In this document: positions 12,396 to 60,305 of the stretch, piece after piece
Position numbering within the stretch: the stretch's first letter is position 1
Layout: each line of letters starts with the position of its first letter
Origin: Paralichthys olivaceus
Lineage: Eukaryota > Chordata > Actinopteri > Pleuronectiformes > Paralichthyidae
Reading direction: 5' to 3'
Assembly: GCF_024713975.1 (NCBI RefSeq)
Contig: NC_091104.1
Coordinates: 14,775,580 to 14,839,579 of the forward strand
Length of the DNA stretch: 64,000 nucleotides
Position numbers and translations under genes: made by a program
Notes under the pieces: generated by a model
The model's database searches: none
The model's input: only the letters and a program-made list of their open reading frames with translations
Told to the model about the DNA's origin: nothing

Positions 12396-34215
<21,820 letters not shown>

Positions 34216-35274: not shown

Positions 35275-35654
35275 AGGTAAATTCACAGAAAAAATAAAAT
35301 TCCCTCATTATCTACTCATCACTATTCAGATGGCGTGGGTGGGTGAATTGTTTTCACAAAACACTTTCGGCATTTCAGCCGTAAACAGCATTGCAGCCAA
35401 ATCCAATACAATTGAAGTAACTGGGGATGAATTCTTCAAACGTAAAAAAACAACATAAAAAACATAAAATGCTTCCTTATTGCTCCTGTGGTGTCACCCA
35501 AGTGTCAAAATCGACTCAAAACGGGGTCATTTACACCAGGTTTTTAGCCTAAATGTCGATATCCTCCTGTGGAACCGTGTTCACAAATATCACTTATTTG
35601 TTTATACAAAATATTCAGCCCATTTCGAAACATCCACCTAAAACATGTTGACAA

Positions 35655-36150
35655 CAGAATACTAAACTAATAACTTTGTTTACATGCTCACAAAATAATC
35701 AGATTATGTTAATCAGATTAATGCAGCAACTCAGATGATGCATTGTGAGACTACTGTAAAACCTTGGTTTAATCTCTGATTTTCCCTTAGTAAAGCCTCA
35801 CGTAGAGTTACTCACTTTTCCCTCTTTTCCTTGCCATTACATATATTTTTTACCACAATCATTCACTGGCCCGTTGTTTTAATCTGGTTATAATTATTGT
35901 CATGTGTTTAATCTTTTCCTGTTCTATTTATCACGTTGATTTAATAGTCGTGCCAAATCTAGCATTTCCAACAGCACGTGAAGGCAGCACAGACGTCACA
36001 ATATACTACGTCATAATCATTGTTGTGGGAGCCAACAAAGGATCAGATGTGACAATGTTAATATTCAATTGATGGATTAAAACCATCGATGTTTTTAATC
36101 CAGTGAACAAGAGCAATCAATAATAACAACAGTGTGTCATTAGTAGAGTA
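35655..36150 (+). repeat. 5' flank of cfap99 copy 1, duplicated at 43870-44165
   Basis: The blocks 'tttgtttacatgctcaca', 'gatgatgcattgtgagac', 'tcacaatatactacgtcat' and 'gatggattaaaaccatc' recur in the same order at about 43870-44165. In the second location about 200 bases (unit-1 positions near 35760-35955) are missing. This shows that the duplication behind the relic copy included upstream DNA. Confidence 0.8.
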
Positions 36151-36339: not shown

Positions 36340-36671
36340 TACAGACATATACACACATACTTACACACACGTACATACATCTTTATATACAGTCTATGAT
36401 ATATACATACATACACCTATAAACACGCATATTTACACATACATACATGTCCAGAGAAAGGAAAGACCAAACGAGAAAAAGCAGAAAAGAATATGATAAA
36501 AACATAAATAATAATAATAACAATAATAATACAATTAATAAATAGATTTTTTTAAAGCAAAAAAAACAAAAAAACATCATCATTTCCCTAGTCTCGACAT
36601 CCCGTAGTGCATAGGACATATATGGACTCAAAAATGTATAAAGGTCTTGTTAGGTCTGTTTACACCAGTGT

Positions 36672-36684
36672 GTTGCTAAGCAAC
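36672..36684. promoter_or_regulatory. Perfect X-box (RFX site) upstream of cfap99 copy 1
   Basis: GTTGCTAAGCAAC is a perfect palindrome with a one-base spacer and fits the RFX X-box consensus RYYNYY(N1-3)RRNRAC at every position. It lies 189 bases upstream of the cfap99 start codon. X-boxes bound by RFX factors are an established feature of ciliary gene promoters. A second half-site (ATGGCAAC) follows at 36693-36700. Binding is inferred, not shown. Confidence 0.7.
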
Positions 36685-36872
36685 GGCAAAACATGGCAAC
36701 GGTTCGAGCTGAAAACAAACTGCTCTTCTTCTTGGGAGAACTCTTCATGAATTTATAACAATTTATAACATCACAGTTTTCTATAGGTTAGAACTTTATT
36801 TTTGTGGCATTTTCTGTCACTGTGGATCACCTCACCAGTCATCTCCATCCGTTTTCTGCAGGTAGTTGTAAA

Positions 36873-39800
36873 ATGGCATCAAACTATGGATCTCTTGTCA
36901 AGGAGGCTATTGTGTTGCTGGATAAATTCAGAGCTGGCAAACAGAGTTTGGATGACTTCATAGAAGATGCTGCAAAAGATCGGCAGGTAGGTCAAGTCAG
37001 ATCTGTGTCAGTTTTATCTTTTCATGTAACACCAATTAAAATGTGATTTTTTTTTCACCTTTCTACGGCAGGTTTTCTTTTATATGAGTTATTTATTTAT
37101 AGATAAGTATTTGTAATAATATTGGGAGGGGGGTTGTTCTTGTTTGATAACCGCCTGAGTGTATTCTGTAAATAAAAATGTAATAAAAACAAATACATAA
37201 ACAAACGAAAATATTTAAAAAATGATGTACTTCATATGTGACACATTTTACAATGATCAGCTGTTCAAGTATACATTTACATTGAAACAACCATTACGTG
37301 TTTTGAAAATAAAAAAAGAGGTAAGTGTTGAAAAACCATGAAGGTCAAATGGGGGATAAAGAAGAAGTGTTTGGTAAATTGAACACTTTCTTTATTTGAT
37401 GCCATACCTTTAACAAGTGTTTGACTATAAAAACCAATCCCTTTAAATGACCTAAGAGGTTTTTTGGAGTAGGAAGGGAACTACTACTGCTCTATAGACA
37501 GCCATGATGGGGTTGTGTCTTTAAGCTCTTAAGGATATGCATCCTGTCAGTAAATAAGGGCTAAGGTCAGCATTTCACAGCATTAATATGGCCAATCATT
37601 CACAGGGAAAGTGTTTGCCAGTATTCATTATCACTCCTAAGTTTATCATAACTCTATAGTCCAGTTTATAAAGAAGGTCTCATTGCTTAGGAACAGGTGC
37701 TCCAGGTCCCCAGGTACTTTACATGGTCAGTAATTTCAAACAGAAGATTGCAGAGAAACCCAGGCTCTAGATCCTGACTCAGAGGCATTAATTCACTCTT
37801 CTACCAACTTATAGTACACCCCGATAGCTTCCCAAACTTTTTAATAAGGTCTAGCAGTGGTGGGACAGATTCCTCACACTGTGACAGAAATAAAACTATG
37901 TCATCAGCTACTGCAAATTTTCTTAGAAATCCATTTTCCAAGAACCTAATTATTCCTACATGAAAACATTTTTTTTGCAGAACATGGATGCTCAGCATAA
38001 GAAGTTCATACTTGATGTTGTCTCTGGATGCACTGAGTACAAAAAGTTACTGGACGCAGTTGTCAACGTCTTCTACGGCCAGAATGGGAGATGGTTATCC
38101 AGAGGTGACCGGAGCCAGTTTCTCAGTAAGTCAAAGAAAATAAACAGACATGAATTTTTGATAAAAGAACATATTTATAACATTTTGTTGCTCCTTAGTT
38201 ATCTGTTACCTCACCACATTCGTCCTCGATGACATTGGGCTTCAGTGTTTTAGCAACATTGTCAAATCTCTGGACATCAAGAAGATGCACACAGTAAGTT
38301 CCTGAACACATCACTGTCCTTGTAATGGAAAGACACAGCAATAAAAGCTCTGTTGTGTGTTTTGTTATAGTTCCTCAACTTCTTCTTCACGCACCTCACC
38401 ACATGGATACAGGAAGAGTGGAATAATATCTACGATGCAGCCTGTGTGGAGGAACAGTGGATCGGTCCCCTGCTGAGGTAAAATGGTCCTGGAAAATCCT
38501 TCTCATACTGTTATATTATAAAAACAAGACATAGCAGCATATGTCTGTTTGTCCTTTAGATGGCGCCCCGATATTGATATTCTAATGGACCAGCTTGCTT
38601 TGAAAATATCCTGTGGGAGTCAGGTCAAGAAAGCTCCAATCAAAATCACAAAGCCCCGGGAGTTCTGTCTCACCAAACCCAAACCTCGACCTCTGCCGAT
38701 CCCAAAGCTCATCCCACAGCAGGAAAAATACAAACCGGTCAGCCTCATTCACAGTTGTACACTGTATTTACTTTCAATATTGCTGATCAGTTGGTTTACA
38801 TATGTACTGGCTGCTGTTTTAGCCTGTAGATAACCCTTATGACAATACACCTGGCCTTTATGCTGTAGATTCTGTAGTGGCTGATTCACTGAACTCGTGA
38901 GGCTTTTGTTTTGAAGGTACCAAACAGCACATACAAGGCTCCAAAGGAGATGCAGATCATAAAGGAGATAAAACAGGAGAACCATCAGAAGACTAAGGTA
39001 CAGCTTCTGGTTTACTATTATATTCAAAAAGTATTCTTGTATGTAAAAGGCTAAAGATGGTCTGTTTAACAAATATATTATATTACAGGAAAACATTTGT
39101 TTTTTATTTTGTTCACTCCAGGAACTGCTGAATGAGGCAAACATGAAACAGTTCAGATGTGGGAATCCACAGAAGTCTGAAAGCACCAAGGTAGGGACTA
39201 TTTTTCTCACATTACCCTCTGGAGGCTGGATTAAACCTTGACGTTAAGCACACATCCACCTTTCACTTTGTATTGAGCCATTTTCACTGATCAGCTGTTG
39301 ATGAACCATCGTCTGTGTTGCAGCGAGCGATGTCCCAGATTCAGAAAGACTTGGATTCAAAGCTCCAGTTCAATTCATTTCATCACTCTGAACCTCCACC
39401 CAGTAATAAGGTGAGATCTGATTATTCCATCTGATACAAATAATCAATCATGAATATCAAGTCTAGTATATTAATATATAATTGAATGTGTTCATTTTGC
39501 TGATGTTGTCAGATCAAAAACTGTCCTGTCAAGCTCAACGGTGCAGCCATCCTGAGGCAGAGGGTGCTGCGTAACCGTAAGGAGGAGGAAGAGCTGCAAA
39601 GGTACAGCACTGTGTTTACCTGCTACACCTAAACCCACTTCTCAGCATGATCAGTACCCTACGGTGGCCAGGAAGGGCAAAGGACAACAGCAAGTGAGGA
39701 ATCACAACGACAAATCACAAAAGACAACGACAAAAAGCAAAACACAATGAACTTAACCTCTCCCGGAAAGTAGGTACCTGCAATGACAAGGATCATTGCT

Positions 39801-42370
39801 GATGGGACAGAAGCACTGTCCGTATTTTAAACAGGCGGGAGACGAGGTGCATTCAAATAGTCAATTTCAAGAGAACTGCTGTATGAAGTCTTTTATACTC
39901 CCACCCACAATGACACAAGGGATTATTATCTCAATTCTAAAACCTACCAAAAACCCGACATTTATAGAACACACAGATGTTATCATCAGCCAACTAGATC
40001 AATTAATAGATGGATAGTTGCAAAGGATGTTGTGATACTGGTGTGCAAAGTATGGTGGTGATAACACACTGATGAAATGATGATAATAATAATAATTGTT
40101 GTGAGTCCCTATTTGTTGTTGTGCTTTTTGATTTGAAGTTGTGATTCCCCGTTTACTGTTTTGAATTCCTGCCCAGGACACAATTAGAATGAACTGCAGA
40201 AAATGTGAATTTGAGGGATTTAATAAGTCTTGTAAAAGAGTTCCTTGATCCAATTCAGAGTTTCTAAATTCAAACAACACTAGAGTAATGTCTATGTGTT
40301 TTTGTGCATGTTGATGCAGGGTGGAGCGTTTGGCAGAAGGAGGAGGTGAGGCCTCCTCTTTTGTACAGTGGCAGAAGAATATGCGAGAGAGGGACCTTCA
40401 GGAGGAGCTGGCCAAGCTTGAGCAAAGGCGTCTGGAGGGACTCATCAGTCACAAGGAGGCAGCCATTGCCCGAATAAACATCATGGAAAGCAACCAGAAG
40501 GCCGCTCAGCTCAAGAAAGAAGAGGTTGGAAAAGACCACTCAACAATCATTAATAAAATGGATTTATAGAAGATTACACGGTGCATTAGTTACATAAAAG
40601 CATGTCTGTTTTCTACAAACATCTTTAAACAAGTAATTTTACAGGGGATTTACAATTATACATGAATAAAATGGTTGCCATAAAATTGTAATTAGGGTTG
40701 CTTTGTTGTGTATCGCAGACAGCTCAGCTGATGAGGGAATATGCTGAGAAGAGGTTGCAGGAAGAGGAAGAACTGAGGGACTTGGTACAACAAGTGGCAG
40801 AAGGACACAAGAACTCAAAAATGGCCAAAGAGAAGTTACAGAAATTCAAGCAAAGTATAGGTACGACTCCACTTGTGATTTAATTCAATTTTTTTGTCAA
40901 GATTTCCTTTTAATTCTCTTGTACATTTCACAGTGAAAGAAGTGTCAGGGCAAAGTCAAGCACTCCTTCGACAAGCACTGGAGGAAGCACAGGCAGAGCT
41001 GAGCAGGAAGTTTCAAACCATCCTTGAAATCCGCGCCATTGAGTCACTTCCTCACATCAGAATGAAATATTTTGACGACACAAAGGTGAGTGGAAGACGT
41101 CATTACAGATTTCACATACTTTAATGTACAGTATCTCTAAGTTAACCTGTTGTCCCTTGTCAGACTGCAGGACATGAACTGATGGGAGAGATGTCCATGA
41201 TTGAGCTGAAGTTGCGACTGGCCCACCTGAAGGAAGTCCAGCAAACAGAGCAGCAGAAGAAACGTGAGAACATCCTGGAGGAGAAGCAGAAAAAGAAGCA
41301 GCTGCTGTTGGAGGAGGTGGCGCTCAATAACCTCCACATGAGAGCAATGACACAGGTTGCAGCCATCAGGTCAGGAAAAACATGTTCGGCTCTGACTTGA
41401 TTATGGCAACAGGTACCCAAGTACTAGTGTCTTAAAGCAGATGCCGGCAGCCACTGGTAACCAGTGAAGGGAGTGGAGTAGTGAGTGAACTTAGGTATAC
41501 TGAAGACCAGTCGAGCTGCTGCATTCTGGATGAGCTGCAGAGGTTGGATGGCATTAGCTGGCAGACCAACCAGGAGGGAGTTGCAGTAGTCTCAGCATGA
41601 GATAACAAGAGCCTGGACCAGAACCTGTGCCGCCTTCTGAGTGAGAAGGGGACGTATTCTCCAGATGTTGTTCAGCATGTATCTACAAGAGCGGGTTGTT
41701 GCAGCAATGTTGGCAGTAAGGGAGAACTGGCTGTCGAGGTTTAGACCCAGGTTCCTTGCGATCTGGGTGGGGGCTACCACGGTGTTGTCGATGGTGATAG
41801 TAAGGTCAAGGGTGGGAGAGCCTTTCCCTGGAAGAAAAGTAGTTCGGTCTTGTCAAGGTGGATTTTCAGGTGGTGTGTGGACATCCACTGAGAGATGTCA
41901 ATCAAACAGGCAGAGATTCGTGCTGCTACATAGACATTAATGTTATGTTCTTTGGCATGTTGCAGGAAAGAGAAGGAGAGGAAGGCCAGCCTGGATCTTC
42001 AGCAGAAAGTTGCTCAAGACAAGAGAGTTTTGGCTATGCAGAAGAAGCTTGAGGAAAAACAGCAAGAGCAGCGAAGGCTGGAGCAAATCAAGAGCAGCAA
42101 GGCCAAAACCGCTGAACAAACAACAGTGCATGCAGGGACATGTGACAAAGTGAGTATGAAATCCAAATCAAAGAAGCTCTCTGCTCTTACTAACAGTTTT
42201 AGCTTTGTCTGGTTTTTGTTTGTGTTTCGATTTTTCAGTCACAGCAGCAGTGAAATAATATTCCTTATTCATCTCCACATTTCTCTTCTTCCCAGAAAAC
42301 CAAGACGGCGGAGGAGATTTGTGAGTCGATGACAAAGAATTTAGAGCAGTTGATCCAGAGGGGCTTTTAA
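36873..42370 (+). CDS. cfap99: Cilia- and flagella-associated protein 99, copy 1, 15 exons
   Basis: Exons: 36873-36986, 37981-38125, 38199-38293, 38371-38477, 38560-38737, 38917-38997, 39122-39190, 39324-39410, 39513-39601, 40320-40524, 40719-40860, 40934-41085, 41164-41369, 41966-42149, 42296-42370. All junctions are GT-AG with consistent phase, total 1929 bases, 642 residues. The N-terminal about 155 residues form a conserved globular region (LDDFIEDAA, FILDVVSGC, EEQWIGPLLRW). Residues about 160-320 are basic and proline-rich. Residues about 320-620 are long charged coiled coil (QEELAKLEQRR, EKRLQEEEELRD). The assignment to CFAP99 rests on recalled family sequence and on adjacency to zfyve28, as in human. 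Known role: predicted axonemal protein of motile cilia and sperm flagella. Intron 13 contains a LINE fragment absent from copy 3. Copy 1 keeps the X-box. Confidence 0.9.
37345..37960 (-). mobile_element. L1-like LINE reverse-transcriptase fragment in intron 1 of cfap99 copy 1
   Basis: Read on the minus strand, 37801-37960 encodes FAVADDIVLFLSQCEES and then PPLLDLIKKFGKLSG. This is the reverse-transcriptase palm region of an L1/Tx1-type LINE, with the usual YADD catalytic box reading VADD. Stops and deletions show it is dead. It lies antisense to cfap99 and ends close to the exon 2 acceptor. The same fragment occupies intron 1 of copy 3. Confidence 0.75.
39660..40175. mobile_element. Decayed inverted-repeat MITE in intron 9 of cfap99 copy 1
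   Basis: Starts 'cctacggtggccaggaagg' and contains 'gacaaaaagcaaaacacaa', 'ggtacctgcaatgacaagg' and 'ggacagaagcactgtcc'. This matches the left half of the better-preserved element in copy 3 (51370-52094). The right terminus is eroded. Its presence in the same intron of all three copies means it was inserted before the duplications. Confidence 0.65.
41413..41925 (-). mobile_element. L2/CR1-like LINE fragment in intron 13 of cfap99 copy 1 only
   Basis: On the minus strand the translation includes LGLNLDSQFSLTANIAATT, then RSCRYMLNNIWRIRPLL, then AAQVLVQALVIS and, after a stop, DYCNSLLVGLP and QNAAARLV. This is the familiar C-terminal part of a CR1/L2-type reverse transcriptase. The stop and truncation make it inactive. 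Intron 13 of copy 3 is only about 105 bases and lacks it, so insertion followed the duplication, or copy 3 lost it. Confidence 0.85.
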
Positions 42371-42721
42371 CTTTCAGACCGGGACGATCATCAGTGTATC
42401 TGCTGCCAGGAGAGAAAACTGTTTCATTTCTGCATTGCCCCATTGACACACTGGAGGCCATAAATTATATATTATATATGTTATAAATGATCAAATATGA
42501 ATCCTTTTGAGTTTCCTGCTGTTCTCCTGGAGTTTGAATTTCACAGATTTTTCCCCCTACACCATGAAATTTCCCCATCTGCCCATCCACTGTAACATAT
42601 ATCAGTTGTGTTAAACACAAGCACACAGTTCCTGGTAACAGGAAGGTGTTTGCGCACAGTCAAAGCATGGATTCACCTGAAGAGCAAGTTGAAGCGAAAA
42701 AAAACGCCCACGATTACCTAA

Positions 42722-43215
42722 AGCATAGGTCACCAATAGGCGGACCGCGGCCCGGACCAGACCAAGACGCCGTTCTATATGGGCCCAGACCTGTTATTAG
42801 ATTCTTATGAACCATTTTTATTTTAACCGAAACAACGGTTTTGCATTTACAGTAGTCTTATTTTAACCTACGCAGCTTTATCCTTCTTTCCAGTAGTAAA
42901 TCCTGGAAGCCCATGGTTGAGTTTACTGCTGTTACTGAACAACAGAAAGTGGGAACAAAAAGAAAAGGTGTTAAAGCTATTTAAAAGTTAGTTGAGATTG
43001 TTTATATGTGTAATACAGTTATATTCTAAGAGCAAAGAAGAAAAGGGGAAACTCAAACCAAATCTTTTTATTTTCTAAAATGAAGCACTTTATTTTAAGA
43101 TGCCTTTTTTTAAAAGCTCTTTATCTTGTTGTTAGATGCAAACCTTATTTTAATTTATTGTATTATTAATAGTACCCTCCACTTCAGTGTGAAAATGAAT
43201 AAACATTGTTTAAAT
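42722..43215. mobile_element. Probable nonautonomous hAT-like element fragment
   Basis: Opens with 'aggtcaccaataggcggacc' and 'gcggcccggaccagacc', followed by 'gacgccgttctatat' and 'cgaaacaacggttttgcat'. This order is typical of an abundant fish DNA-transposon repeat, recognised from memory. The ends are uncertain and no transposase domain is seen. Confidence 0.5.
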
Positions 43216-43869
43216 ACAGTTGAATTAGACTTTCCTTATTTTGTTTGACAGTCAGTTATTGACATCATACAGACATTGATACAACTACTAGGCTACTTCA
43301 AGATGATATTTTTGATGGACTGCTTAACTTGAATTTACAGTGTTTTGATATTCCTCCAGAAAGTTACTTGAATTTAACTTTGGTTTTCATTTATATTGTT
43401 GTTGCTGAATGTAGATTGATATATCCCATTTACTTTAATCGAACAAGCTCTTGCACTCATTTTATTTTGGAGACTCAGACTCAGCTATTTTATTACCTTA
43501 TTTGTTGTGGAATAATGCCTTGCAGTGCATACTTTGTTTTCTATCAGATTTGTTTGTATTTAAGAGAAGATGATTAAATAAATATAAATGATATACGTTT
43601 TATGTAAGTTTTTAAATTTTTATTTTTGATAATATTCATTATTATATGAATCCAGTAATACGAAATGATTAATTGAACATTAAAGATTGAAGATGAATTG
43701 GAAAATCAGTCATAAGAAAAACAATTATCCATAGTTGAGTGACTTTCAAAGAAAAAAATGCCTAATAAGCCACTGAGGCGTTAATGGGAGGACCTTGATC
43801 CGACGCATGCTCTAAATCAGCAGAAAACAAAATTCATGTCCGGTTTGCAGCTTCAGATTTATTAAGACT

Positions 43870-44165
43870 ACAGAATACTAAACTAATGACTTTGTTTACA
43901 TGCTCACAAAATAATCAGATTATGTTAATCAGATTAATGCAGGGACTGAGATGATGCATTGTGAGACTAAATCCAACATTTCCAACAGCGAGGGGAAGGC
44001 AGCATAGATGTCACAATATACTATGTCATAATTAAGGTTGGAGCCAACAAAAGATCAGATTTCACAATGTTAAAATTGAGCCGATGGATTAAAACCATCA
44101 GTGTTGTTTAATCCATTGAACAAAACTGATCAATGATAAAACAAATCTGTCATTTTAGAAGATAG
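43870..44165 (+). repeat. Second copy of the cfap99 5' flank
   Basis: Aligns in order with 35655-36150 upstream of copy 1, but lacks about 200 internal bases. It lies about 850 bases upstream of the first recognisable exon of the relic. It marks the 5' side of the duplicated unit that later decayed. Confidence 0.8.
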
Positions 44166-46769
44166 GACAAGATGGAGAATATCCCTTGAATATTTGAAGG
44201 TCTACCACACAAATTAAGATGCCAACCAGCATTTGATGTTAGAAGATGTTTGCGACAAGCAGTGGATGTTAGGGACATATCTTCAGTTGTGTACCTTAGG
44301 ATCACATCGTAACAAGTAAAACCTGAGGGTACGCTGTGGCTAAAGGTGAATCTGACTGGCTATCTCATTAACTAACGCTTGCCTACTGTTAGATGAAAAT
44401 AATGTAATCACTGATTATTAATGGTGAGCACAAATCTGTACACAAAACACATTTCCTGATAACTGATAACTCATTTATAACTCTTCAACTGACTGTAATA
44501 ATGTTGCAATTGCTACCATCTCCACCGTGTAAACTGACAAATGATCTGATCTCTGTCTGGTATACTGAAACCAAAACCTGTTTGTCATGTAATAGGATGT
44601 TTGGATCCATCTTCATATAGTGGAACAAATGTTTCATATAATTTTTTACATTTCGAGAGTACTTAGTATAGTACATATACTGTGTATATGTTAATTCCAT
44701 TTTACCACACACCTCAAAACCTTCTTTCTTCTTTGTTCAGTTTATTGGCAGGTGGAAATCTACATCAAAGCGCATTACCGCCATCTATTGTGTTGGTGCA
44801 CCATTCATGGAGGTACTTTATTCAATAGATTTTTATCATCATGGGTAAAATTTCCTTTGATCTTCAAAAGGAAAATATCCTTTGGTGATGCTTTTTGATT
44901 GTCAGGGTTAGGGTTAATCAAGTAAACAAAAAAGTTTCTGTACTTGAAGGGTGTTTCAAGTTGGATACATATAAACCGAAAAAAGAAGAAGAAATTCTTC
45001 TTAATTTTTGTTTGTCTTGCTCCGATATTGATATTCTCATGGACCAACTTGAAGCCACGAAGTCCCAGGACTTCTGTCTCACAGAAACCGAACCTCAACA
45101 TCTGCCAATGCCTGAGATCATCCCAGAGCAGGAAGAATGCAAACTGGTCAGCATCATTCACAGTTATACACTATGTTTATTTACAATATTGCTGATCAGT
45201 TAGTTTATATATTTTAGCCTGTAGATAACCCTTAGGAGAACATAGACCTGGCCTTTATGCTGTAGATTCTGTAGTGGCTGATTCACTAAACTCACGAGGC
45301 CTTTGTTTTGAAGGTACTAAACAGCACATACAAGGCTCCAAAGCATGCAGATCATAAATTAGATATTATCTTCTATTAGATTTAATATTATCTTCAAGAA
45401 AATACTCTGATATCTAAAAGGCAAAATATGGTCTGTTTGACAAATGTATTATAATATAGGACATTTAAACAGAGGGGGTAGGTGTAAATCAACAGCTCGT
45501 ACATCCGACAAAACAATTTGAAACAATAAAAAGTGTTATTCTATGAAGGGTATATATTTTCAGTAAATCCTTTTGTAAAATTGGAGACTCTAAGTTGAAC
45601 ATAGGTGTGAATGTGAGCATGAATTGTTTGTGTCTTTATGTCAGTCCTGTTGTATGCTGCCAACCTGTCCAAGGTGTCCCCACTGGCTTCTCACCCCAAT
45701 GTCAGCTGACACCCCCACAACCCTTATACAATAAAAACAACCTCAATTTATTTAAAACATTCTATCAAGTTATTATAATCACTACTTATATGTGCCTAAT
45801 TACATGCATTTGTAATGACATCCTATCTGTTTTCCACAGGAACCTCGGAATGAGGAAAAAATTAAACAGCTTTGGGAGAAAAAGTCTGAACAATTGAGGG
45901 TAGGGACTATTTTCTGTGATTGATATGTTATTCTCATATCACCTCCCTGGAGGCTGGATTAAACCTTGACGTTATGCACACATTCACTTTTCACTTTGTA
46001 TTGAGCCATTTTCACTGATCAGCTGTTGATGAACCATCGTCTGTGTTGCAGCGAGCGATGTCCCAGATTCAGAAAGGCTTGGATTCAAAGTCCAATTCAA
46101 TTTATCCCACTAAACCTCCATCCAGTAATAAGGTGAGATCTGATTATTTCGTCTGATTCAAATGATCAATCTTTCATTTCATATGTATGTAAATATCGTG
46201 TATATTAAATTCTAATTTAATTTGTTCATTTTGCTGATGTTGCCAGGACATAAACTGTCCCGTCAAGCCCAACAATACAGTCAAGCTGAGGGAGAAGGCG
46301 CTTCATACCTGTGAGGAGAAGGAGGAGCTGCAAAGGTACAGCACTGTGTTTACAAGCCACACCTTGACCCACTTCTCACTGATCAGTATCCCACATTGGC
46401 CCTGGGCAAATGACAACAGCAAATAGAGAATCACAAAGACAAATCCCAAAACACAACAACAAAAAGCAAAACACAACAACAATTCTTTTGAATATAGGAG
46501 ATGGTGAATATCCTTGTACATTTGATGGTCTTCTGCACCATTTAAGTTACAAATAACCAGTTAGTAGGTGTTAACAGTCGCCAGGGACATAACTTCAGTT
46601 GTGCGCCTTAGCGTCATCAAGTGTTTAGACGTTGTAATCAACAGTGTAATCAACGCTCAGTAGATCAGTTGTCATTACCTCTATGCCCTTTTGAACTAAA
46701 CACTGTACCATTTTAGAACATAAGAAAAGATGAAGAATATCCCTCTCCTGTTCAATCGCACTGAATAAT

Positions 46770-47150
46770 GCCTACCACCAGTTGATCCTAGCAGATGTTA
46801 GTGAGCACCTTCACACACATCTTCAGTGATGGAACTATAAGCCAGTGAGTTGAGGAGGCCCTCCCTGTCCCCTTCTTGGACAAATTTGTCCTTTGACCTG
46901 CATTTGCTTTGGACGGCAAGGCATTGGTAGCAGTTCTCATTCTGGCCCATGTGATTATTTCTTCAAGTTTCCCTAGCAACTTACTGGTGTCATCATGTCA
47001 TCCATGTAGGCCCTGATTGGTGTTAATCGGACCCCCAACTTTTGTCACTCACCACCTACCACCCATTTTGAAGCTCTGATAATCACTTTCATCACCATGA
47101 TGAACGCGAGTGGGGAGAGCTATGTAGACAGCTATGATGCCTATAGACAC
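46770..47150 (-). mobile_element. LINE reverse-transcriptase fragment replacing exons of the relic
   Basis: The minus strand encodes GVRLTPIRAYMDDMM, then LLGKLEEIITWARMR. A YMDD catalytic box and a following KLEE..WARM block are typical of a fish non-LTR reverse transcriptase. Later frames are disrupted. The fragment sits between the exon 9-like and exon 14-like pieces of the relic and probably inserted with, or after, loss of exons 10-13. Confidence 0.7.
46967..46980. promoter_or_regulatory. Candidate X-box upstream of cfap99 copy 3, inside LINE-derived DNA
   Basis: GTTTCCCTAGCAAC fits RYYNYY(N2)RRNRAC at every position. It lies 537 bases upstream of the copy 3 start codon, within the dead reverse-transcriptase fragment (opposite the LLGKLEE codons). 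It may be a chance match. Copy 3 has lost the palindromic X-box of copy 1, so this is the nearest remaining candidate I found. Confidence 0.35.
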
Positions 47151-47516
47151 TCATGTTATGTTCTTTGGCATGTTGCAGGAAAGAGAAGGGGAGGGAGGCC
47201 AGCCTGGATATTGAGCAGAAAGCTGCTCAACACAAAAGAGTTTTGGCTCTGCAGAAGAAGTCTGAGGAAAAACAGCAAGATCTGCAAAGACTCAACCAAA
47301 TCAAGAGCAGCGAGGCCAAAACCGCTGAGCATGGTATTGGTTCGAGCTGAAAGCTGCTCTTCTCCCTCAGAAAACTCTTCATGAATCAAGAATATTTTAG
47401 AACAAATATATATTTTTCCACTTTTCTATTGGTGATAACTTTTTTTTCTCTCTGCAAGTGCAGATCATCTCACCACAGTTATCACTCTCCATCTGTTTTC
47501 TGCAGGTTGTTGTAAA

Positions 47517-50500
47517 ATGGCATCCATCTATGGATCTCTTGTCAAGGAGGCTATTGCATTGCTGGATAAATTCAGCGCTGGCAAACAGAGTTTGGATGAC
47601 TTCATAAAAGATGCTGCTAAAGATCTGCAGGTAGGTAAAGTCAGATCTGTGTCAGTTTTATATTTTCATGTAACACCAATTTGAATTTGAATTGTTTCCC
47701 CTTTCTACTGCATTTTTTATAGCTTTTTTGAGGGGTGGGTTATTCTTGTTTATTTTATTCATAGCTTCAGGAAAAAAAGACAGAACATTGAGGCGGTTAT
47801 CAAACAAGAATACATTTTGCCCGTGATTTAAAGTTTCTTACTATTGAGACCAGCCTTTATTGGCTTTTTCTGGAATGGGAGGAAGATTGTTCCCATAGAC
47901 ATGTTAGAAGCAATGAAAGACTTCTGACCAGTGTAGTTTGCTGCAGAAACAAAACATGTGAGCCAGGGTTCCTTTAGATTGTTTGTATTTGATACAGAGT
48001 GGAGATGAGGATGGTTAAACTGAGTGTAATTTAACAGGTGAATGATAGTCTATGTAGGACCTTATATTGAATTAGCTGATGGTTGGAGTCAATTGAGCAA
48101 GAGTGTATGCTAAGAAGACATTTAGCCCATTAACCCTTTGAGATTTCTACTCCCATGTCACTCTCCCAGGACGTCCTCAGATGCTGCATAGGTCGAGCAG
48201 TCGCGCAACATATTTACAAACTTAGAGACCAGTTTTTTGGTAACAGGTTCAGTTGTCAGTAAGGACTGAAGCTCATCAGGAGAATTATAAGTTTCAAAGT
48301 TTGAAATATTTCCTCTGACATAGTTCCTGATTTGCAGATACCCGAAAAAAATCTGATGACTGCGGTATAGATTTGACTTTAAGCGGAGCAAATGAGGATA
48401 ATCCATTATTAGTATACAAGTCACTGATGGTAGCGGGAACTTTCCTCCAGATTTAAACAACAGCATCTTTGGGAAGGGAGAAATGCATGATTATAACAAA
48501 TGGGGGATAAAGTAGAAGTGTTTGGTAAATTGAACACTTCCTTTATTTGATGCCATACCTTTAGTGTCAGTTTTATATTTTGACTATAAAACCAATCCCT
48601 TTAAATGACCTAAGAGGTTTTTTGGAGTAGCGCTGGAAGGGAACTACCACTGCTCTATAGACAGCCATGATGGGGTGTCTTTAAGCTCTTCAGGATATGC
48701 ATCCTGTCAATAAATATGGGCTCAGGCTAAGGCTGTCTTTAGATTTACAAAGATATTTTTGGGTGCTTGACAGGTCACCATTTCACAGCATTAGTATGGC
48801 CAATCATTGACAGGGAAAGTGTTTGCCAGTATTCATTATCACTCCTAAGTTTATCATAACTCTATAGTCCAGTTTATAAAGAAGGTCTCATTGCTAAGGA
48901 ACAGGTGCTCCAGGTCCCCAGGCACTTTACATGGTCAGTAATTTCAAACAGAAGATTGCAGAGAAACCCAGGCTCTAGATCCTGACTCAGAGGCATAAAT
49001 TCACTCTTCTACCAACTTATAGTACACCCCGATAGCTTCCCAAACTTTTTAATAAGGTCTAGCAGTGGTGGGACAGATTCCTCACACTGTGACAGAAATA
49101 AAACTATGTCATCAGCTACTGCAAATTTTCTTAGGAATCCATTTTCCAAGAACCTAATTATTCCTACATGAAAACATTTTTTTGCAGAACATGGATGCTC
49201 AGCATAAGAAGTTCATACTTGATGTTGTCTCTGGATGCACTGAGTACAAAAAGTTACTGGACGCAGTTGTCAACGTCTTCTACGGCCAGAATGGGAGTTG
49301 GTTATCCAGAGGTGACCGGAGCCAGTTTCTCAGTAAGTCAAAGAAAATAAACAGACATGAATTTTTGATAAAAGAACATATTTATAACATTTTGTTGCTC
49401 CTTAGTTATCTGTTACCTCACCACATTCGTCCTCGATGACATTGGGCTTCAGTGTTTTAGCAACATTGTCAAATCTCTGGACATCAAGAAGATGCACACA
49501 GTAAGTTCCTGAACACATCACTGTCCTTGTAATGGAAAGACACAGCAATAAAAGCTCTGTTGTGTGTTTTGTTATAGTTCCTCAACTTCTTCTTCACGCA
49601 CCTCACCACATGGATACAGGAAGAGTGGAATAATATCTACGATGCAGCCTGTGTGGAGGAACAGTGGATCGGTCCCCTGCTGAGGTAAAATGGTCCTGGA
49701 AAATCCTTCTCATACTGTTATATTATAAAAACAAGACATAGCAGCATATGTCTGTTTGTCCTTTAGATGGCGCCCCGATATTGATATTCTAATGGACCAG
49801 CTTGCTTTGAAAATATCCTGTGGGAGTCAGGTCAAGAAAGCTCCAATCAAAATCACAAAGCCCCGGGAGTTCTGTCTCACCAAACCCAAACCTCGACCTC
49901 TGCCGATCCCAAAGCTCATCCCACAGCAGGAAAAATACAAACCGGTCAGCCTCATTCACAGTTGTACACTGTATTTACTTTCAATATTGCTGATCAGTTG
50001 GTTTACATATGTACTGGCTGCTGTTTTAGCTTGTAGGTAACCCTTATGAGAACATACACCTGGCCTTTATGCTGTAGATTCTGCAGTGGCTGATTCACTG
50101 AACTTGTGAGGCTTTTGTCTTGAAGGTACCAAACAGCACATACAAGGCTCCAAAGGAGATGCAGATCATAAAGGAGATAAAACAGGAGAACCATCAGAAG
50201 ACTAAGGTACAGTGTCTGATTTTACTATTATCTTTAAAAATGATTCTAATGTGTAAAAGGCTAAAGATGGTCAGTTTAACAAATATATTATAATACAGGA
50301 CATTTAAACAGAGGGGGTTAGGAGTAAATCAACAGCTAATATATCCAACAGTTAGATAAAACACAGAGAAACATTAGAGAACATTAATAAATATATTCTA
50401 TACCATTGTAAGTGGGGTTTATGGTGTTTCAACAATTTCTAAGTATACAAATATCTTGGTTTGACATAAATGCACTAATGTTGCTTCTGTTGTTTCCAAT

Positions 50501-53500
50501 TTCAATTAAATGTGAAGGGTGTATATTGTCAGTATATTGGAGACTCCAAATTGAACATAGGTGCAAATGTGAGCATGAATGGTTGTTTGTGTCTATATGT
50601 CAGTCCTGTGATATGCTCTCGACCTGTCCAAGATGTACCTCGCCTCTGGCCCAATGTCAGCTAACACCCCCAAAATAATGAAACAATAAACACAACCTGT
50701 CACAGTTATTAACTATTTAAAGTGTTGTCTGATAATCACCACTTATATGTGCCTAATTACATGCATTTGTAATGACATCCTGTCTGTTTTCCCCAGGAAC
50801 TGCTAAATGAGGCAAATGTGAAACAGTTCAGATGTGGGAATCCAGAGAAGTCTGAAAAGACCAAGGTAGGGACTATTTTCTGTGATCAATATGTTTTTCT
50901 CATATCACCTCCCTGGAGGCTGGATTAAACCTTGACGTTAAGCACACATTCACTTTTCACTTTGTATTGAGACATTTTCACTGATCAGCTGTTGATGAAC
51001 CATCGTCTGTGTTGCAGCGAGCGATGTCCCAGATTCAGAAAGACTTGGATTCAAAGCTCCAGTTCAAGCCATTTCATCACTCTGAACCTCCACCCAGTAA
51101 TAAGGTGAGATCTGATTATTCCATCTGATTCAAATGATCTATCAATCTTTCATTGCATATGTATGTTAATATCATGTATATTCATTTCTAATTTAATTTG
51201 TTCATTTTGCTGATGTTGTCAGAACATAAACTGTCCCGTCAAGCCCAACAATGCAGCCAAGCTGAGGCAGAGGGCGCTCTATAACCATAAGAAGAAGGAG
51301 GCGCTGCAAAGGTACAGCACTGTGTTTAAAAGCCACACCTTGACCCACTTCTCAGCATGATCAGTATCCTACGGTGGCCAGGAAGGACAAATGACAACAG
51401 CAAATAGAGAATCACAATGATAAATAACACAACAACAAAAAGCAAAACACAACAGCAAATATTTGGGAATATAGGACTAGATGGTGAATATCCCTTGTAC
51501 ATTTGAAGGTCTTCTGCACCATTTAAATCGCCATCTACCAGTAGATGTTAGCAGGTGTTAGTGACCATGAGCAGGTGTTAGGCACATAACTTCAGTTGTG
51601 TAGATCTCTCTTCTAACTCTTAGCTGTTTGGATTTGGTGCCAGATAATGCTAGTGTATTTTAAACATCCAGAGAACCCTGGAATTCCAAGAATCACACTG
51701 ACAAGTCAGAAAACAACAAAAAGCAAAACACACCATTAACTTCTACCAGAAAAGGTAGGTACCTGCTTTGACAAGAGTTATTGCCTATTGGACGGAAGCA
51801 CTGTTCCTCTTTTGAACAGATGGGAACACTAGATGGGGTGTGTCTGAATAGTCCATTTCAAGTGAGTGAACTGTATTTCAGCAGCCACAGTGCTTCCGTC
51901 CAACAATCCTTGTCATAGCAGGTAGCTACCTTTTCCGGTAGAAGTTAATGTCATTGTGTTTTTTAATTGTTGTTATGATTTGCCATTGTGATTCCCTGTT
52001 TGTCATTGTGTTTACCTTTTAGTTGTTGTGTTTTGTGATTTACCGTTGTGATTCCCTGTTTGCAATTTTAATTTGCCCTTCAGAGCTACCGTAGAATCCT
52101 ACACAGGACACAATTTAGAATGAACTGCAGAGAAATGTAAATTCGAGGGAGTTAACAATTCTTGAGAATGGTTTGATTAATGTAACTGCATAGAAATATA
52201 TAAAATAGTCCCTTGATCCAATTTAGATTTTCTAAATTCAAACAACACTAGAGTAATGTCTATGTGTTTTTGTGCATGTTGATGCAGGGTGGAGCGTTTG
52301 GCAGAAGGAGGAGGTGAGGCCTCCTCTTTCGTACAGTGGCAGAAGAATATGCGAGAGAGGGACCTTCAGGAGGAGCTGGCCAAGCTTGAGCAAAGGCATC
52401 TGGAGGGACTCATCAGTCACAAGGAGGCAGAAATTGCCCGAATAAACATCATGGAGAGCAACCAGAAGGCCGCTCAGCTCAAGAAAGAAGAGGTTGGAAA
52501 AGACCACTCAACAATCATTAATAAAATGCATTTACAGAAGATTACACGGTGCATTAGTTACATAAAAGCATGTCTGTTTTCTACAAACATCTTTAAACAA
52601 GTAATTTTACAAGGGATTTACAATTATACATGAATTAAATGGTTGCCATAAAATTGTAATTAGGGTTGCTTTGTTGTGTATCGCAGACAGCTCAGCTGAT
52701 GAGGGAATATGCTGAGAAGAGGTTGCAGGAAGAGGAAGAACTGAGGGACTTGGTACAACAAGTGGCAGAAGGACACAAGAACTCAAAAATGGCCAAAGAG
52801 AAGTTACAGCAATTCAAGCAAAGTATAGGTACGACTCCACTTGTGATTTAATTCAATTTTTTTGTCAAGATTTCCTTTTAATTCTCTTGTACATTTCACA
52901 GTGAGAGAAGTCTCAGGGCAAAGTCAAGCACTCCTTCGACAAGCACTGGAGGAAGCACAGGCAGAACTGAGCAGGAAGTTTCAAACCATCCTTGAAATCC
53001 GTGCCATTGAGTCACTTCCTCACATCCGAATGAAATATTTTGACGACACAAAGGTGAGTGGGGAAGACGTCATTACAAATTTCACGTACTTTCATGTACA
53101 GTATCTCCAAGTTAACCTGTTGTCCCTTGTCAGACTGCAGGACATGAACTGATGGGAGAGATGTCCATGATCGAGCTGAAGTTGCGACTGGCCCACCTGA
53201 AGGAAGTCCAGCAAACAGAGCAGCGGGAGAAACATGAGCACATCCTGGAGGAGAAGCAGAAAAAGAAGAAGCTGGATTTGGAATCAGAGATCGAGTACCT
53301 CCGCGAGAGAGTAATGGCACAGGCTGAAACCACCAGGTCAGGAAAAACATGTTCGGCTCTGACTTAATTATGGCAGCGGGAAAAATATACAAACACAAAT
53401 ATCATACAGACATTAATGTTATGTTCTTTGGCATGTTGCAGGGAAAAGGAGAGGAAGGCCACCCTGGATCTTCAGCAGAAAGTTGCTCAAGAAAAGAGAG

Positions 53501-53798
53501 TTCTGGCTATGCAGAAGAAGCTCGAGGAAGAGCAGCGAAGACTAGAGCAAATCAAGAGCAGCAAGGCCAAAACCGCTGAACAAACAACAAGAGTGAGTAT
53601 GAAATCCAAATCAAAAAAGTTACTGCTCTCACTGACAGTTTTAGCTTTTTCTGGTTTTATTATTTGTGTTTCATCCATAGAAATAATATCCCTCATTCAT
53701 CTCCACATTTCTCTTCTTCCCAGAAAACCGTGACGGCGGAGGAGAAGTGTGAGTTGATGAAAAAGAATTTAGAGCAGTTGATCCAGAGGGCCTTTTAA
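47517..53798 (+). CDS. cfap99: Cilia- and flagella-associated protein 99, copy 3 (second intact copy), 15 exons
   Basis: Exons: 47517-47630, 49188-49332, 49406-49500, 49578-49684, 49767-49944, 50126-50206, 50797-50865, 51018-51104, 51223-51311, 52288-52492, 52687-52828, 52902-53053, 53134-53336, 53442-53592, 53724-53798. Every exon of copy 1 has a counterpart. All junctions are GT-AG in the same phases, giving 1893 bases and 630 residues. The 12-residue difference comes from in-frame changes in exons 13 (3 bases) and 14 (33 bases). There are no stops or frameshifts, so it looks functional. Exons 2-5 and 10-12 are almost identical to copy 1, while exons 9 and 13 differ at many residues. Its upstream DNA begins at the duplication junction (about 47333) and lacks the X-box of copy 1, so expression may differ. 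Confidence 0.9.
47840..49165 (-). mobile_element. L1-like LINE fragment in intron 1 of cfap99 copy 3
   Basis: The minus strand of 48158-48466 encodes HQIFFGYLQIRNYVRG and other C-terminal reverse-transcriptase-like sequence. 48500-49165 is nearly identical to the fragment in copy 1 (37345-37960), including the region encoding VADD. This copy retains more of the element than copy 1. It is antisense to the gene and ends just before exon 2. Confidence 0.7.
51370..52094. mobile_element. MITE with long terminal inverted repeats in intron 9 of cfap99 copy 3
   Basis: The left arm starts 'ctacggtggccaggaagg' and the right arm on the opposite strand starts 'ctacggtagctctgaagg'. Inner arms also pair: 'ttaacttctaccagaaaagg' on the left with 'ttaacttctaccggaaaagg' on the right read backwards, then 'ggacggaagcactgt'. 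The whole element could fold into a long hairpin. No open reading frame of note. Flanks 'gtatcc' and 'gaatcc' may be an imperfect target duplication. Confidence 0.75.
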
Positions 53799-54352
53799 CT
53801 TTCAGACTCGGGCGATCATCAGTACCGGCTGCCAGGAGAGAAATACATTGAATAGCTGTTTCGTCTTTTATTACGTTTTTAATGTGACACATTTTTATTG
53901 CATTAAAATTTACAATCACAACAATCGATGTCAGATTTGTCTCGATGATGAAGTTTTCTACAGACTTGAATGTAGTCCACCTTTTACTGCAGGTGTAAAT
54001 TTAGTGTTTCATGTTGCACCAGGGTTTGTTATGTCCTTTAAATATTGAGATTTCAGAATTGTTTCATTTCTGCATTACACACACCCGTCTGTGGCCTTAG
54101 GACCTTTACCAGCATAAAAACTGCCCTTGTCAGGACCAGTGGATCTGATGGGGACCGAACTCAGGCTCTAATGAAGTAAAACATCATTTCTGGGGTCCTG
54201 GATAAGTTTAGGGGAAAGATGTGAAGTGTGGCAAGGTTAAGGTTAGGGTTTGGTATTAATCTGCCATGGTTAGGGTTAGGGATACAGTTTTGGTTAGGCT
54301 TTGCACAATGAATGGAAGTCAATGCAAAGTCTTAATAAGGATAGCTGCGCAA

Positions 54353-57582: not shown

Positions 57583-60305
57583 TTCCCATCACTAATGCAA
57601 GTTTGAGATATGGTTACAGCAGGTTAAGCAATACAGCCAATATTCTTCCTCCCAGCCACATTCTTCAGGATTGGAAAAGTAATTCCTCCAGAGTGTTCTT
57701 GATTTGCCCTGGATCTAAAGTGCCCTAAATTCTGTCAACACCTGGAGGCATCACAAGCAAAGCAAAGGAGGAGTATTGAGGAAGCAGCAGTTTCCTTGAA
57801 CTCCTCCCACATATAAACTGATTTCAACATCATATATTTTCAGATTTGATTCAAAGCTTGTGACCTTCTTGCTGAACCTGAAAAACTGCCTCCTCTGCAA
57901 GCTCTTGGGCTGCTGCCGCCATAGGCAAAGCCGTCTCTGCGGCCACAGCTCCATTGTTTGTTTTCACAGCGATTGGATCTTGGATAGCCTATTCACTCTT
58001 TAGTTTTATTAGCGCAAGTGTCCAAACAACTTCACCAACAGAGATTTACAGCGATTTACATCATTTTAGATCTTTGCTCTGGAAGTTGCTCCGATGTCTG
58101 TTTGCTCTGTGAAACCAAACTTCAGCAGTGGCTTCAAACTACACTTTTTTTTGTTGCAAGATGCCTCTAAGTTTCTTGTGGTACAAACCATAATAATCTG
58201 CAGCTTTATGTTCACAAACACCTCTTTCTACTTCTCCTACAGTTCCTCTGGTTGCTCACATTGCCAGATGTGTCCTGTAGGAACAGAGGCTCTACAGAAC
58301 GCTGCTAAAGACTGCACACAGTGTCGGCCAGGTAGTGCACACCACGTCAACTTAAAGCTTCAGGGCTGTAGTCATTTCTATGAGAGCCTGACAAGGCTTG
58401 TCATTTAAAGCATGAGTGTGTATCCGTCTGTCTTTTGACAGGCATGCACAAGGCTTCCCATCAAACTATGTGTCAGATCTGCGGCAGTGGCTTCTATCAG
58501 ATCCACTGGGGCCAGGAAAGCTGTGACGTCTGCCCAGAGAATCACTACTGCCCTGTGAGTGCTGCAGCCTCGACATTCTGCACTCTGCAGCCTCTACAAT
58601 GTGCACCCACCACATACTGCAGTCTCCAAACTCTGCACCCTCCACCCTCTGATCCATCTACATTTGTGTTTGAGAGATGTCCTGCATGTTTGTCCCTCAT
58701 ATCATTTTTTCAGAGTCCAGATGTGAACCCCATTCTGTGTCCCAACGATGCCTTTTGTCCAGCGGGCAGTTTGGCTCCAGGCTACTGCATGGAGACCTTC
58801 TTCCGCAAAGCAGGGGATGTTTGTGAGCTGGCTCCTGTCACTATTGCTCTGTTAGTTATTGGAGGTGGAGGTAAGTATCAATGCTGGTACAAGTGCATTT
58901 AAATGTGTTTTTCCAGATATATCAGCATTATATCCTGCCTTTGCTAAATGCCATTTTAAGGTATTAGAATTCTAATTATGATTTTCAAACTAATGTGTTT
59001 AAACTAAACATATTCTCCACTGCAGGGTCATATATATATGCAAGACTTTTTCTTTCATACTAATGTTATTAGCATTTGTTTGACATTGTACTGACTCTTA
59101 ACTTCCTTTGTGTAACATTAGCATGCCTATTTTCTGTGGCCCTACAGGGCGAACAACATGTATAACTGACCACCATGGACACAGATCAACATAAAGCCTT
59201 TAAACAGCTGAACCATAGAATTTATTAAATTCGAATAACACAATAAGTTTGATCAAAATTCACAAAGAACATCATTCTATTTATTAATTGCAATGCATGT
59301 TACAAAAGGCTGTATGTTAACAAGTCAGATTGATGTACATCAGAAACCATCTGCAAACTCTAAACACCAATTTATCTTCGTATGTGGGCCAATGCTGACT
59401 GCATTTATATATGGCTCTCAGGACACAAGACTTTAAACCTAGACCTGATGTTAATATGTATCTAATGCATCAATAAACAAGGGACTGCTGCTGGTGGAAC
59501 AAACCAGTTCACAACACAGAAGGGCCAAGTTATTATTGCTGCTGGATTAATAGTGAGCAGCCGGCACACAAGTAGCCATACAACTGGATGCCACTCCCAC
59601 CTTACACAATATGGCTAGCACCATGAGGTGGACAAATCACAGAACAAAGGTACTTAATCTACCTCAGCACAACACTTACACAGGTGACCAACACAAATGT
59701 TGAGTGCAGCAGCCACAACCCAAAAGGGTCACAAGTAGAACACCTAAAAAGTTGCTGCCATTCACAAACAGCAGAACACGAAGACCCAATAAAGTGAGCT
59801 GCCACTACCACAACCCACCTCCACACTCACTGTCATATAAGTAAACCAGCAACATACACCAACTTGATAAATGATGTATTTGTATTTGATGTTTGTCATA
59901 CATACTGATTTTCTGAGAGAATTGTTTTCTTTTCTATTCAGTCCTTTGGAAAAAATACTTTTCTTGTTGCATACAGGAAACGGATTCTGTTTCTGGCCTT
60001 ACACTGAGGACACATTGTTCACAAACAAGACATAATCAAACAAAATAAGAATCATGCTCGTGTATCAATGCATTCTTTGTGCGTCTAATAAGCCCGAGTG
60101 TAGATGGTCATTCCATGTAACGTTTGTGTTTTTTCCCCCTTTTCCAGTGGCGCTGCTCTTCATCATTTTAATGATTCTGCGTCGACGGAGAGACACTGAC
60201 GGAGAACTGACTGTTGCTCGAGCTCCACTGTTATGCAAAGAGCGGCCTCAAGGTCGATACTACGGCATCCCCTGTGATGCAGAACCTGTGTATGCTGGCT
60301 GGTGA
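55323..60305 (+). CDS. Type I membrane protein with TNFR/ephrin-receptor-like cysteine-rich repeats, 9 exons, unnamed
   Basis: Exons: 55323-55374, 56316-56489, 56708-56846, 56951-57039, 57270-57333, 58243-58331, 58442-58554, 58714-58870, 60148-60305. All GT-AG, phases agree, 1035 bases, 344 residues. The start MMECRGLLPLIAAACFIG is a likely signal peptide; an upstream in-frame ATG exists. Residues about 19-65 are Ser/Thr-rich with NVT and NTST glycosylation sites. Residues about 66-275 hold at least six short cysteine-rich repeats (CLACARGFYQS, CHPCPAGSFNN, CAPCSRGSFC, CQMCPVGT, CDVCPENHYC), a pattern of GCC2/GCC3 (ephrin-receptor-like) and TNFR modules. A transmembrane helix (about 282-303) is followed by RRRR and a 37-residue tail ending AEPVYAGW. 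No kinase or death domain. I do not recognise the gene. A polyadenylation signal AATAAA lies at 60905-60910. Introns 5 and 8 contain repeats but no other gene. Confidence 0.82.
57490..57581 (+). repeat. (AC)n microsatellite in intron 5 of the cysteine-rich gene
   Basis: An AC array of about 92 bases preceded by shorter interrupted AC runs (57470-57486). Confidence 0.97.

Follow-up and report, generated by a model that had tools for sequence, protein, structure and literature searches.

The 64,000-nucleotide stretch of Paralichthys olivaceus DNA analysed here (the window; NC_091104.1, contig 12, 14.776–14.840 Mb, of a 588-Mb assembly in 25 contigs) carries three units derived from the ciliary gene cfap99, the outer two of which are intact genes of patchy mutual identity. 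We consider it probable that this cluster is the ancestral cfap99 locus after a partial tandem duplication, with unit 1 as the canonical gene, and that a rearrangement joint marks derivatives of the duplication, namely unit 3 and a set of short copies that spread along the contig, with gene conversion having acted between the copies.

Unit 1 (36873–42370, + strand) encodes 642 residues in 15 exons (exons 1–8, hereafter E1–E8, at 36873–36986, 37981–38125, 38199–38293, 38371–38477, 38560–38737, 38917–38997, 39122–39190 and 39324–39410; E9–E15 at 39513–39601, 40320–40524, 40719–40860, 40934–41085, 41164–41369, 41966–42149 and 42296–42370). Its 14 introns all have GT/AG boundaries, its phases are consistent and its only stop is terminal. 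Unit 3 (47517–53798, + strand) encodes 630 residues, likewise in 15 exons (E1–E8 at 47517–47630, 49188–49332, 49406–49500, 49578–49684, 49767–49944, 50126–50206, 50797–50865 and 51018–51104; E9–E15 at 51223–51311, 52288–52492, 52687–52828, 52902–53053, 53134–53336, 53442–53592 and 53724–53798), with exon phases and splice sites identical to those of unit 1. A sequence-only reading of the window had proposed three cfap99-derived units in a single orientation, the first and third being intact 15-exon genes of 642 and 630 residues and the second dead. Exon reconstruction bears out the units and their orientation at the place claimed, the phases, GT/AG sites and lack of internal stops confirm that units 1 and 3 are intact, and the gene models together with the relic exons support two intact tandem paralogues beside one dead unit.

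Pfam returned no family above its cut-off for seven single exon frames or for the whole of unit 1; the CFAP99 identity was taken from matches to PDB sequences. Mouse CFAP99 (PDB 9ijj, chain J) matched unit 1 at E=8.6e-136 and unit 3 at E=2.4e-125 over almost the entire protein, and Chlamydomonas FAP99 (PDB 7n6g) matched them at E=1.6e-57 and E=4.5e-54, respectively. Both units are thus CFAP99 members by full-length homology, and both proteins would be expected to function on the central-pair microtubule C1 in motile cilia or sperm tails.

Gapped alignment between units 1 and 3 recovered one match of 1809 bp (94% identity) and another of 1373 bp (90%), far beyond chance, and the differences between the units are unevenly spread. 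After removal of 50-column blocks with more than 35% mismatch, conversion tract 1 (37453–38823, + strand, in unit 1; ~48.6–50.0 kb in unit 3) holds 13 mismatches in 1367 columns, a likely second tract (40163–41212, + strand; ~52.1–53.2 kb in unit 3) holds 33 in 1050, and the sequence outside both tracts holds 247 in 2083 (12% divergence). The longest identical run extends over 732 bp (38092–38823, introns included), compared with a maximum of 178 in 2000 permutation shuffles. Over E2–E6 the two units differ at one nonsynonymous and at none of ~129 synonymous sites, and introns 2–4 show no difference at all. Synonymous divergence (Ks) reaches 0.13 in E1 and 0.19 in E14, which makes the duplication older than tract 1; in the short exons outside the tracts Ks varies (0 in E8 and E15). 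An identical tract that includes introns thus lies within diverged flanks, and this patchy identity indicates gene conversion between units 1 and 3. A plain recent duplication was rejected, as divergence is patchy along the alignment. Exons 10–12 were probably likened by conversion earlier than exons 2–6.

Several exons differ mostly at nonsynonymous positions (synonymous versus nonsynonymous differences of 3 versus 14 in E9, 3.5 versus 23.5 in E13 and 0 versus 7 in E15). Of the aligned differences between the two proteins, 46 have a mouse residue for comparison; the mouse-like state is found in unit 1 16 times, in unit 3 four times and in neither 26 times, indicating that the unit 3 protein evolves faster.

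Unit 2 (45019–47331, + strand) is made up of pieces of E5 (45019–45144), E6 (45314–45365), E7 (from 45840), E8 (46052–46132), E9 (46247–46335) and E14 (47179–47331), in line with the six broken exon pieces claimed for it previously. In its E6, 2 nt are deleted and the donor end is missing, and the sequence from unit 1 to unit 3 gave no match to E1–E4, E10–E13 or E15. In E7–E9 and their flanks, 61 alignment columns are shared by units 2 and 3 only and 16 by units 1 and 2 only, which would make units 2 and 3 sisters in this part.

Further cfap99 sequences are present on the same contig. A genome-wide protein search gave 61 matches (E≤0.001), all of them on contig 12, and those outside the window fell at 21.104–21.113 Mb (array A), at 22.883–22.902 Mb (array B) and, in one case, at 23.71 Mb. 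Arrays A and B lie 6.3 and 8.1 Mb from the window, which together with them makes three multi-exon cfap99 places on the contig. Of the 15 matches that a DNA search with 36650–37650 returned, 14 were again on contig 12, and the other (109 bp, intron 1, noncoding) was on contig 5, genome repeat counts being lower bounds. Array A reads A1 (E5 to E9, E14), A2 (E1–E9, E14) and A3 (E1–E6), and array B reads B0 (E5, E14), B1 (E1–E9, E14), B2 (E1, E6 parts), B3 (E5 to E9, E14) and B4 (E1–E6). A gap within exon 5 is common to A1, B0, B3 and unit 2. The arrays are mostly 80–86% identical to the window, with some stretches at ~70%, and mostly 85–91% identical to each other. Exons 10–13 had no match outside the window in the 588-Mb assembly, and exon 15 was absent from the sequences of arrays A and B, the genome search for this exon being so insensitive that it missed even that of unit 3. 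Just two full-length cfap99 genes were therefore found in the assembly. Identity of copy A2 to unit 3 is 82–83% over the tract but 88% in 304 bp lying outside it; conversion from unit 1 into unit 3 is a direction only hinted at by the alignments. The match near 23.71 Mb (L017, 23.713 Mb) is a lone cfap99 exon-2 scrap that contains a stop and matches each of the two copies in the window with 84% identity over 630–632 columns.

The E14 fragment of unit 2 (47179–47331) directly adjoins the former E1-upstream region of unit 3, so that a rearrangement joint is formed, beyond which the E14 reading frame stops within a few codons; homology of unit 3 to the region upstream of unit 1 starts near 36692. 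The identical E14/E1 joint precedes unit 3, A2, A3 and B4 (the arrays lying at 21.1 and 22.9 Mb), and B1 has it with a small gap. In copy B2, the sequence beyond the joint position is unrelated to it.

On the side lost at the joint, and 201 bp 5′ of the unit-1 ATG, lies a palindromic RFX X-box, GTTGCTAAGCAAC (36672–36684, + strand), that fits the restricted consensus GYTRYY N1-3 RRHRAC (PMC2375033). It is the sole palindromic X-box of this consensus within the window, and none of the six derived copies that have E1 carries one within 1 kb upstream. An X-box by itself does not predict RFX control according to the same paper (PMC2375033), and the restricted consensus matches 14 times in the window. 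The strict pattern matches at one site, on both strands; the expected number of matches is 0.96, and 2 are reached in 26 of 100 shuffles. The unit-1 X-box may accordingly be called suggestive only through its position, its palindrome and its nearness to the joint. A candidate replacement in unit 3, GTTGCTAGGGAAAC (46967–46980, − strand), is non-palindromic and lies 550 bp 5′ of the ATG; similar matches occur at –559 in A3 and –576 in B4, and none was found within 1 kb upstream of A2, B1 or B2. Sites of this type stay within what chance alone would give (6 seen, 10.6 expected). Because the joint adjoins a palindromic X-box that only unit 1 has kept, units 1 and 3 probably differ in their control. 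The sequence-only reading had suggested dosage or tissue specialisation, such as sperm versus epithelial cilia, for the two paralogues. The absence of this site from unit 3, combined with the faster change of its protein, would make differential control likelier than pure dosage.

Four of the copies in the arrays have open N-terminal frames. In A2, A3, B1 and B4, the 639 nt of E1–E5 are unchanged in length and contain no stop, the frame is open from ATG to stop, the GT/AG sites are retained and the exon matches are gap-free. The frames of A3 and B4 (239 residues) end in E6 at new stops that match each other, that of A2 runs through E1–E9 and E14 and ends a few codons beyond the joint, and that of B1 does likewise with an earlier stop in an altered E14. 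E1–E5 of A3 matched mouse CFAP99 at 5.3e-35 and gave no Pfam family above cut-off. Lacking E10–E13 and E15, the four copies fall short of full-length CFAP99 and are best classed as derived from cfap99 rather than as full members. In neutral simulations that assume no conversion between copies, the probability that all four stay open was 0.0003–0.06 over five settings of branch length. A hand count from the alignment gave 4 indels in 240 intron bases versus 0 in 639 exon bases (p=0.005). A3 and B4, from different arrays (L009–L016), share FPNV at the start of E5 as well as the E6 stop, though A3 otherwise groups with A2, which may be read as a sign of conversion inside array A.

Selection was examined in these four short copies together with units 1 and 3, leaving out B2 (without E2–E5), A1, B0, B3 and unit 2 (without E1–E4) and the 23.71-Mb scrap. 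The ratio of nonsynonymous to synonymous change (omega) exceeded 1 at an uncorrected p<0.05 in just 2 of 15 pairs (A2–A3, 3.5, p=0.008; unit 1–A3, 1.9, p=0.03). Nonsynonymous divergence exceeded intron divergence (p<0.05) in 6 of 10 pairs, which are not independent of each other; these were 5 of the 6 pairs among short copies and 1 of the 4 that involve unit 1. Model M2a was favoured over M1a with a likelihood ratio (LR) of 24.7 for the six copies (p=4e-6) and of 23.7 for the four short ones, and sites with a posterior above 0.9 in the six-copy set (64, 67, 68, 71, 75, 156 and 160) fall in two patches. The signal in E1–E2 was kept when the gene was split or the topology altered (p 0.00004–0.008). 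Positive selection in the short copies is likely rather than established.

As to the surroundings, zfyve28 (Lst2) lies on the opposite strand at 12–17 kb, with a match to a Lateral signaling target protein 2 homologue (15465–17048, minus strand, E=4.3e-43) and FYVE-like motifs near 12.46 and 12.68 kb that support it as the cfap99 neighbour; zfyve28 adjoins CFAP99 in human as well. Downstream of unit 3, 58070–58902 (+ strand) holds cysteine-rich protein frames with an Ephrin_rec_like match (PF07699, E=1.2e-6, 58384–58902) and a weak TNFR_c6 match (58070–58408). Intron 13 of unit 1 contains an insertion of ~500 bp (41412–41920) that is absent from unit 3 and whose minus-strand frame resembles the terminal part of the reverse transcriptase of a non-LTR retroelement. 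Pieces of a dispersed repeat around units 1–3 (43866–44293 versus 35650–36141 and 51461–51602) are 77–95% alike, and may come from a transposon or from duplication of the sequence upstream of unit 1. Open frames between B2 and B3 in array B (L014:774–1742) and beside array A (L011:2013–2938) resemble retroelement reverse transcriptase.

Starting from the observed anatomy, shared joint, mosaic identity, open frames and site-model signal, the history we favour would run as follows. A derivative duplication would have fused a broken exon 14 to sequence just 5′ of exon 1, thereby removing the X-box, and unit 3 and the truncated copies, which carry this E14/E1 joint, would descend from it. Unit 3 would have retained all 15 exons, with conversion between it and unit 1 homogenising exons 2–6 and, probably earlier, exons 10–12, and unit 2 would have decayed. 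A truncated unit (E1–E9 with E14, or E1–E6) would have spread to two arrays on the contig, where four copies still encode putative N-terminal-domain proteins. If made, these short proteins would retain the domain by which mouse CFAP99 contacts CCDC180 but lack the rest of CFAP99, and may modify or compete with the full-length protein.

A number of points weigh against this history. Unit 2 is nearer to unit 1 than to unit 3 in E6 (10 versus 3) and E14 (8 versus 3), with E5 silent. The overall omega of the six copies, 1.21, is indistinct from 1 (p=0.30), as expected also of unconstrained sequence, and positive selection based on mean omega alone was rejected on this value. The site-model signal is weak in E3–E5 (p 0.02–0.13), the codon models were run with our own code without a check against a published program, and recombination, which can inflate site-model tests, is present among the copies. 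Finally, one of the five simulation settings gives P=0.06 for the open frames.

In a somewhat unlikely alternative, a plain tandem duplication left two redundant genes serving dosage, and the truncated copies are all pseudogenes under drift whose frames are open by chance. An omega near 1 in the short copies would fit such drift, as would the lack of a palindromic X-box within 1 kb upstream of all six E1-bearing derived copies and the transposon-like open frames around the arrays. It fits less well that all four testable short copies are open with exon lengths kept at ~82% identity to the window, whereas introns 2–4 have indels, that nonsynonymous exceeds intron divergence in those 6 of 10 pairs at p<0.05, that site models favour positive selection, and that unit 2, bearing the same joint, is visibly broken. 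That haplotypes or collapsed repeats created the second gene or the identical block during assembly appears very improbable. Mis-joined reads could yield a 732-bp identical run within diverged copies, but the 12% divergence outside the blocks is well above the usual allelic level, unit 3 has its own joint, common to copies 6–8 Mb away, and the 588 Mb were assembled in 25 contigs. The wide variation of identity along the alignment and the joint shared with distant copies also make it unlikely that unit 3 is simply an assembly duplicate or an uncollapsed allele.

In mouse sperm, CFAP99 runs along C1 within the 32-nm repeat, its N-terminal domain meeting CCDC180 (PMC12297659). FAP99 is described as a filament protein of the C1 outer surface with a 32-nm repeat (PMC9113940), a 2021 review places CFAP99/FAP99 in C1d (PMC7999657), and in salmon the expression of cfap99 is lowered in testes depleted of germ cells (PMC12469351). 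Units 1 and 3 share with CFAP99/FAP99 homology over almost the entire length, and differ in forming two complete tandem copies accompanied by truncated N-terminal ones. Among the papers listed in a search of the CFAP99 literature, including its duplication, paralogue and fish context, there was no report of these copies, and among those listed on truncated sperm paralogues and drive the titles and abstract openings contained nothing on CFAP99.

A possible parallel is Sdic of Drosophila, a young tandem family of chimeric genes for a sperm dynein intermediate chain that arose out of an axonemal gene, gained a new promoter where the parts join and evolves fast. Unlike Sdic, the cfap99 copies have been truncated and are scattered over a single contig. 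In the protocadherin clusters of fugu, tandem paralogues are reportedly homogenised blockwise by gene conversion, leaving patchy identity between neighbours; here, in contrast, the gene is an axonemal structural one, and the alike blocks take in introns and N-terminal exons. It is conceivable, though quite doubtful, that the truncated copies constitute a young expressed family of N-terminal CFAP99 proteins that compete with the two full-length proteins, or retune them, where CCDC180 docks in the sperm tail. Sexual conflict, sperm competition or segregation distortion would then be the driving force, and conversion would protect the N-terminal block in the two full-length genes.

In the central apparatus CFAP99 has a structural role, and extra or shortened subunits would not be expected to be harmless. 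Two full-length genes kept alike in their N-terminal domain, together with short copies in which this very domain changes fast, may represent a natural experiment on how a fixed axonemal lattice tolerates or exploits duplicates, and the locus would test whether loss of an RFX site shifts a ciliary gene to another tissue.

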